Shown one piece after another: positions 32,150 to 33,703 of a DNA stretch of 64,000 nucleotides. The notes under the pieces are model-generated. The model saw only the letters and a list, made by a program, of their open reading frames with translations, had not been told where the DNA came from and did no database searches. Every line of letters begins with the position of its first letter. Within the stretch, counting starts at the first letter, position 1. A program made the translations under genes and the position numbers. The stretch is from Opitutia bacterium ISCC 52 (GTDB lineage Bacteria > Verrucomicrobiota > Verrucomicrobiia > Opitutales > UBA2995): assembly GCA_014529675.2 (NCBI GenBank), contig CP076040.1, forward strand, positions 496,001 to 560,000. Direction: 5' to 3'.

Positions 32150-32214
32150 TTTTTTTTAATATTCTGGGAAATAAATCGGAACACCTGGCCTCTTTACATG
32201 TATTCAAAGCTTGA

Positions 32215-32320
32215 ATGGTTAGAGAGTTACCTACCGGGTTCACGCCCGGCTAGGAGATGGTGTCTAGCCGACACCTTTAGTGGCCCCGGGATAGTAGGTT
32301 CCTGGGGCCATTCTTTTTTT
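32215..32320 (+). ncRNA. Candidate structured RNA with interlocking stems and own terminator
   Basis: In the 227-base gap before the GH26 gene, three stems overlap in turn. CCGGG (32234) pairs with CCCGG (32245-32249). GGCTAG (32248-32253) pairs with CTAGCC (32264-32269). GGTGTC (32259-32264) pairs with GACACC (32270-32275). The last two can form an H-type pseudoknot, or the pairs can be alternatives, as in a switch. A strong terminator (32281-32320) closes the unit 56 bases before the next gene. I recognise no known class. It could be a small RNA or a riboswitch/attenuator for the GH26 gene. Confidence 0.5.
32281..32320 (+). terminator. Rho-independent terminator
   Basis: TGGCCCCGGGA (32281) pairs with TCCTGGGGCCA (to 32310), eleven pairs with one wobble, an eight-base loop, then TTCTTTTTTT. 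It can end the candidate RNA or the transcript of the DUF2161 gene, and could attenuate the GH26 gene. Confidence 0.88.
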
Positions 32321-32376
32321 ATTCGTAACCTTATCTCTGAATACCCAGTTTTTACTTTGGTAGTTCTCGCCTGATT

Positions 32377-33336
32377 ATGAAGCCGCGCATTTTCTCTCTT
32401 TTTGTTCTGATTATAAGTAGCCTTATGGTTTCTGCTGGCGAGGACTCAGTCGTGGGCGCACAGAAGAGACAAGTAGAGTGGGGTGTTTATGAGATGCTGA
32501 CGCGTCGATATTCCTGGGAAGATCGCTTGGATCAGGCTATTTATGACTTTGGTGCCAATCCGGAGTTCGTCCTTTTCTTCAGGGATTTAAACCGGACGCG
32601 GACCTTCCCAACTGAGAGAGTTCAAAACGCCCATGCCAGGGGTATGACTCCGGTCATCAGTCTAGAAATAAGTCAGTGGGGCCGTGGAGGTGATGCCGGC
32701 TACTTAGAGGAAGTGGCAAAAGGCGAGTTTGATGACTTTTTCCGACAATGGGCCAAAGATGCCAAAGCCTGTGATCTTCCGGTCATTCTGCGTTTCGGTT
32801 TTGAAATGAATGGCGACTGGTTTCCTTGGGGTGAACAGCCAAAGACCTTCATCCGAGCCTGGCGTAGGTGCTACAATATCTTCAAAGAGGTGGGATGCGA
32901 AAACGTTCAGTGGATGTTCTCTCCCAACATTCTGTGGGACAAGCGGACTGAAAAGAAGGATTTCTATAACTATTACCCCGGCGCAGCCTATGTGGATTTG
33001 ATTGGCCTAGACGGTTACAATTTTGGGGATCACCACGACAAATGGCACGAATGGCAAAGCTACGAGGAAGTCTTCGAGCGGACCATTAAGGCCAGTATGA
33101 AATTTAATAAACCGGTCTATATTTCGGAGATAGGCTGTGCAGACGATGAGCGTAAACCGGCCTGGATTAAGGACTTCCTTGAAAAAGTATCCAAGGACGA
33201 GCGGATTGAAGGCTTTATCTACTTCAATCACTTTAACCCTCGAAAGGGAGAGCCCAATTGGCGCTTCGACAGTGATCCTGAAACGCTGCGTATTTTTCGC
33301 GAATGGGTTAAGAAAAATGAAATGAGCTCCAAATAA
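32377..33336 (+). CDS. Secreted GH26 glycoside hydrolase
   Basis: 319 residues with a signal peptide (LFVLIISSLMVSAGE). GH26 features: WGVYEMLTRRYSWED, the acid/base Glu in ILRFGFEMNGDWFPWG near residue 145, VQWMFSPN, YYPGAAYVDLIGLDGYNFG and the nucleophile in VYISEIGCADD near 250. GH26 enzymes hydrolyse beta-mannan, beta-1,3-xylan or mixed glucans by a retaining mechanism; specificity is unknown. Single gene behind the candidate RNA and terminator. Confidence 0.92.
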   Translation: MKPRIFSLFVLIISSLMVSAGEDSVVGAQKRQVEWGVYEMLTRRYSWEDRLDQAIYDFGANPEFVLFFRDLNRTRTFPTERVQNAHARGMTPVISLEISQWGRGGDAGYLEEVAKGEFDDFFRQWAKDAKACDLPVILRFGFEMNGDWFPWGEQPKTFIRAWRRCYNIFKEVGCENVQWMFSPNILWDKRTEKKDFYNYYPGAAYVDLIGLDGYNFGDHHDKWHEWQSYEEVFERTIKASMKFNKPVYISEIGCADDERKPAWIKDFLEKVSKDERIEGFIYFNHFNPRKGEPNWRFDSDPETLRIFREWVKKNEMSSK

Positions 33337-33385: not shown

Positions 33386-33703
33386 ATGATTAAGCTCTCT
33401 TTAATTCTCTTAGGTTCCCTAGTCGCATTTTTCATCCTACCTGGAATCCTGGCAGCCATTGCCGGATTCGTGTTCATTGCGGCTTTATTCGGCCTTGTAT
33501 TTACCGGACTCGGTTATGTGTTCTCTGCCTTTGGATCTGTGGTGTCCACAGTCTTCGGAGCTCTATTCAGCGTGCTGGCAACTCTGGTGTTACTGGTCGT
33601 GCTTGGAGTTAGTCTGCCAGTGCTTCTGATTCTGGCGCTTCCCTTAGGAATGCTATTTCTCGTCGGATGCTTATTCTGTACCGTGGTTTGCGGCGTCGTT
33701 TAA
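33386..33703 (+). CDS. Small hydrophobic membrane protein
   Basis: 105 residues, nearly all hydrophobic with three or four transmembrane stretches (LILLGSLVAFFILPGILAAIAGFVF, VLATLVLLVVLGVSLPVLLILALPLGMLF). No charged loops of note. No family recognised. It converges on the SleB-like gene, nine bases apart. Strong codon bias toward hydrophobic residues and an ATG start make it a probable gene. Confidence 0.6.
   Translation: MIKLSLILLGSLVAFFILPGILAAIAGFVFIAALFGLVFTGLGYVFSAFGSVVSTVFGALFSVLATLVLLVVLGVSLPVLLILALPLGMLFLVGCLFCTVVCGVV

Follow-up and report, generated by a model that had tools for sequence, protein, structure and literature searches.

We identified a structured RNA of about 105 nt in a 64,000-nucleotide stretch of the Opitutia bacterium ISCC 52 genome (hereafter, the window), which probably represents a stand-alone small RNA (sRNA) gene with its own putative, ECF-sigma-like promoter and its own intrinsic terminator. 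The RNA is real, previously unlisted and, as judged from seven sequences in two genera, restricted to one family of Opitutales; it is otherwise an ordinary kind of sRNA gene. Homology among relatives, covariation of hairpin A and the terminator, and independence from the neighboring GH26 gene were demonstrated at the level of sequence. The features of the locus are as follows.

32170–32205, + strand: putative ECF-type promoter of the RNA, read from the homologue alignment (AATAA; -35-like GGAAC at 32178–32182; 16-nt spacer; -10-like TGTATTC at 32199–32205)
32203–32215, + strand: palindrome TTCAAAGCTTGAA where transcription is predicted to start; the sister genus has an imperfect version
32213–32320, + strand: small RNA, predicted transcript, with a presumed 5′ end and a 3′ end taken from the terminator
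32217–32231, + strand: 5′ segment GGTTAGAGAGTTACC, proposed interaction region, with GGTTAGAGAGT invariant in the alignments of all homologues
32230–32254, + strand: hairpin A, with changed bases and pairing kept (4 pairs altered on both sides)
32248–32269, + strand: possible alternative pairing of GGCTAG (32248–32253) with CTAGCC (32264–32269), compensatory in relatives G002 and G001, broken in G006, G007 and G003
32259–32264 with 32270–32275, + strand: hairpin B, GGTGTC-TAGCC-GACACC (GGUGUC/GACACC), nearly invariant, 95% of cells paired
32281–32320, + strand: intrinsic terminator, a stem (32281–32310) with conserved loop GTAGGTTCC, then a T-run
32325–32352, + strand: putative separate GH26 promoter, GTAAC-N16-CAGTTTT, with the same 16-nt spacing in five loci of the genus
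32377–33336, + strand: GH26 gene (Pfam Glyco_hydro_26, E 1e-15), a neighbor and not part of the RNA gene

The sequence-only reading had described three stems (CCGGG/CCCGG, GGCTAG/CTAGCC and GGTGTC/GACACC) and a strong terminator just ahead of a GH26 gene, and all of these elements were found in place, with the stems overlapping. By reading of the sequence, CCGGG/CCCGG lies within hairpin A, the strands of which are CCUACCGGG and CCCGGCUAGG, and GGCTAG/CTAGCC overlaps both hairpin A and hairpin B. The region 32180–32360 folds at -66.1 kcal/mol (z = -4.8), a stability reached by 0 of 200 dinucleotide shuffles. The excess is common to hairpins A and B (z = -3.2 on their own; 3 of 500 shuffles) and to the terminator (z = -5.0 on its own). 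A short upstream ATG inside hairpin B was rejected, as its reading frame is not conserved.

Homologues were present in all seven family genomes with a readable locus (G000, G001, G002, G003, G005, G006 and G007), that is, in five of the six genomes of the genus and in both genomes of the sister genus (G006 and G007). When 53 genomes were searched at the DNA level, clear matches came from G001, G002, G003 and G005 of the genus and from the two sister-genus genomes, while the best matches in other families were at chance level. A model built from three sequences (R1) recovered the same set of homologues with 59–154 bits, and its search of 372 genomes of the order found nothing convincing beyond the family (approximately 360 other genomes). 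The weak R1 matches outside the family (E 0.004–0.08) that were inspected proved to be other terminators or unrelated, and one-mismatch 15-mer matches outside the family lacked the structure. G004 gave no match, probably owing to an assembly gap, since its GH26 gene sits 20 bases from a contig end. Each genome carries one copy, apart from two contig-end fragments in G002 that probably represent one locus. These fragments (L031 and L009; contigs C749 and C443) differ in sequence, perhaps through strain variation or contig-end errors. The contigs of two relatives (C749 and C443 of G002; C899 of G004) end in or beside the locus. In G003, the terminator hairpin has been lost; its role could be taken by hairpin B with the T5 that comes after it. 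The GH26 gene of the same genome (G003:C11:23565-24487; L199, L200) is split over frames with internal stops, and is apparently either a decaying gene or the product of assembly errors.

In Rfam 15, the RNA fell below the gathering threshold of every family, as did its homologues; the only gathering-level match in the window was a tRNA elsewhere. The earlier description of an unidentified structured RNA was confirmed, since the homologues covary and no family matches. The weak Rfam matches scored well under threshold and differed from one homologue to another. The best of them, ctRNA_pGA1 (RF00236), reached 17.3 bits against a gathering threshold of 45, was not found in the homologues and is ascribed to chance, the likeness consisting of hairpins followed by a terminator. 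A limited search of the literature retrieved nothing on this RNA and no experimental work on sRNAs of this order.

Covariation was assessed in an alignment of the seven sequences (A7), fitted to the R1 structure, which favors that structure somewhat. In A7, 92.4% of cells were paired and 16 cells were changed on both sides, compared with a shuffle mean of 7.3; 0 of 500 shuffles reached 16, and slid controls gave 1–4 two-sided changes. Compensatory changes were also visible by eye in MAFFT alignments. Two-sided changes occurred in four pairs of hairpin A (such as the sister-genus replacements of CG by GC and of CG by UA) and in 4 of the 11 pairs of the terminator, where 98.5% of cells were paired. 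The helices of hairpin A and the terminator are supported by this covariation; that of hairpin B, which is nearly invariant, is a predicted one.

The evidence on the pseudoknot proposed earlier was mixed. The pairing GGCUAG/CUAGCC showed 3 two-sided changes with 73.8% of cells paired, and a one-column slide also gave 3. Compensatory changes retain the interlocking pairing in G002 (GGUAAG/CUUGCC) and, in the same register, in G001 (AUUG/CAAU), but it is broken in both sister-genus genomes and in G003. Because its bases are shared with hairpin A, this pairing would be an alternative fold. Alternative folds are near-equal in energy in this genome (-51.0 vs -52.2 kcal/mol), but such a bistable fold was not found in G001 or G002. 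A third pairing, of 5′ GGUUAGA with UCUAGCC, gives, by a small margin, the most favorable fold in this genome and in G005, and is unfavorable in G001 and G002; no covariation across the homologues was seen for pairing between the hairpin B loop and the 5′ segment. The 5′ segment is unpaired or weakly paired in the fold containing hairpins A and B, and sequestered in the alternative fold. An sRNA acting as a conformational switch, in which the hairpin B loop (UAGCC) would pair either with hairpin A (its 3′ strand) or with the 5′ seed GGUUAGA and so open or hide the seed, is conceivable but unlikely.

The earlier suggestion of an sRNA agrees with the covarying homologues and with the result of the Rfam comparison; a riboswitch for GH26 did not withstand comparison between genera. 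A cis-acting riboswitch or attenuator, in which ligand sensing would control transcription past the terminator into GH26, is consistent with the terminator's position 57 nt before GH26 in the same orientation, with the overlapping stems and with the near-equal folds. However, a riboswitch is expected to lie in the 5′ leader of conserved or related genes, and here the downstream gene differs between genera. The gene order in the genus is DUF2161, RNA and GH26, whereas in the sister genus, where GH26 was not found, the RNA persists with a UbiA gene and a gene for either a beta-carotene dioxygenase-like protein or a methyltransferase as neighbors. In G006, UbiA is on the opposite strand; the next gene downstream has that orientation, leaving no codirectional gene after the RNA. 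Moreover, each of the five loci read in the genus conserves the block G(T/G)AAC-N16-CAGTTTT between the terminator and GH26, and the bistable fold is absent from two relatives. On this evidence, a riboswitch is very unlikely. The RNA is regarded as a separate gene and GH26 as its neighbor because the context changes between genera, GH26 is absent from the sister genus, and UbiA of G006 is on the opposite strand. The two sister-genus genomes carry the UbiA gene in opposite orientations (L202 7412-8242; L203 7450-8280). In the window, GH26 is followed by a small hydrophobic protein of 105 aa (33386-33703) with no Pfam match; GH26 has a similar protein after it in G001 and G002 as well.

Upstream of the RNA, the ungapped homologue alignment revealed AAATAA-N3-GGAAC-N16-TGTATYC at fixed spacing, with a diverged spacer; the exceptions are GGGAC in G003, AAATAT in G007, and a departure in the -10 element of the second G002 fragment. 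The promoter of the ECF sigma factor SigW of Bacillus is TGAAAC-N16-CGTA. The block shares with ECF sigma promoters such as this an AAC-type -35 element, a 16-nt spacer and a GTA-containing -10 element. From their layout, both this block and that ahead of GH26 are putative ECF-type promoters. The extended pattern had no other perfect copy in the genome, the four loose matches were mostly inside genes and near chance, and no regulon sharing the pattern was found in the genome. The palindrome TTCAAAGCTTGAA is a possible operator or RNA 5′ end. In the genus, the DUF2161 stop codon lies approximately 60 nt upstream of the RNA on the same strand, as would suit a 3′-UTR-derived product or plain terminator region of that gene. 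In the sister genus, however, no DUF2161 gene lies upstream, yet both the RNA and its upstream block are kept, making this origin highly improbable. A DNA-level nature of the stem cluster, as a protein-binding site or a mobile repeat, is scarcely credible: the palindrome at the start and the contig ends in or near the locus in two relatives would fit it, but there is a single copy per genome (two contig-end fragments in G002), and the compensatory changes and the T-run fit an RNA.

The stand-alone sRNA gene is the reading that we favor. Its promoter-like block, terminator and changing context, all recognized from sequence alone, are those expected of the gene for a trans-acting sRNA. The RNA resembles trans-acting bacterial sRNAs, which have an unstructured 5′ seed and an intrinsic terminator, in size, in its own promoter-like block, in a conserved segment that precedes the hairpins and in the terminator hairpin; the likeness is one of architecture, with no sequence or Rfam relation. 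The RNA would be transcribed from its own promoter, of presumed ECF type, and ended by its own terminator hairpin with the conserved loop, giving a predicted layout of invariant 5′ segment GGUUAGAGAGU, covarying hairpin A, near-invariant hairpin B and terminator. The 5′ GGUUAGAGAGU suggests an interaction site because it is the most conserved stretch of the RNA, precedes the hairpins and is largely unpaired in the fold containing both. Through this segment, the RNA may act in trans, either by base-pairing or by binding a protein, a mechanism that we infer from the conservation of a short segment.

Exact complements ACTCTCTAAC occur at three other places in this genome, two of them within a few bases of a downstream start codon. 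Judged by eye from sequence, one of these two genes encodes a symporter of the SSS type and the other a membrane protein; neither is supported as a target, as the one readable orthologue of each (in G005 and G001, respectively) lacks the site. Across eight genomes, complements before ATG were at plausible starts, judged by a simple ORF rule, in 6 of 15 cases compared with 3 of 30 for the reversed control, a small and uncorrected difference, and raw seed-match totals were lower than those of the reversed control. No target is established, because the orthologues read do not conserve the complement sites.

With its homologues, covariation and predicted promoter, this RNA provides a compact, well-bounded and easily testable candidate. 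Its position beside GH26 also serves as a caution against inferring cis regulation from gene neighborhood.
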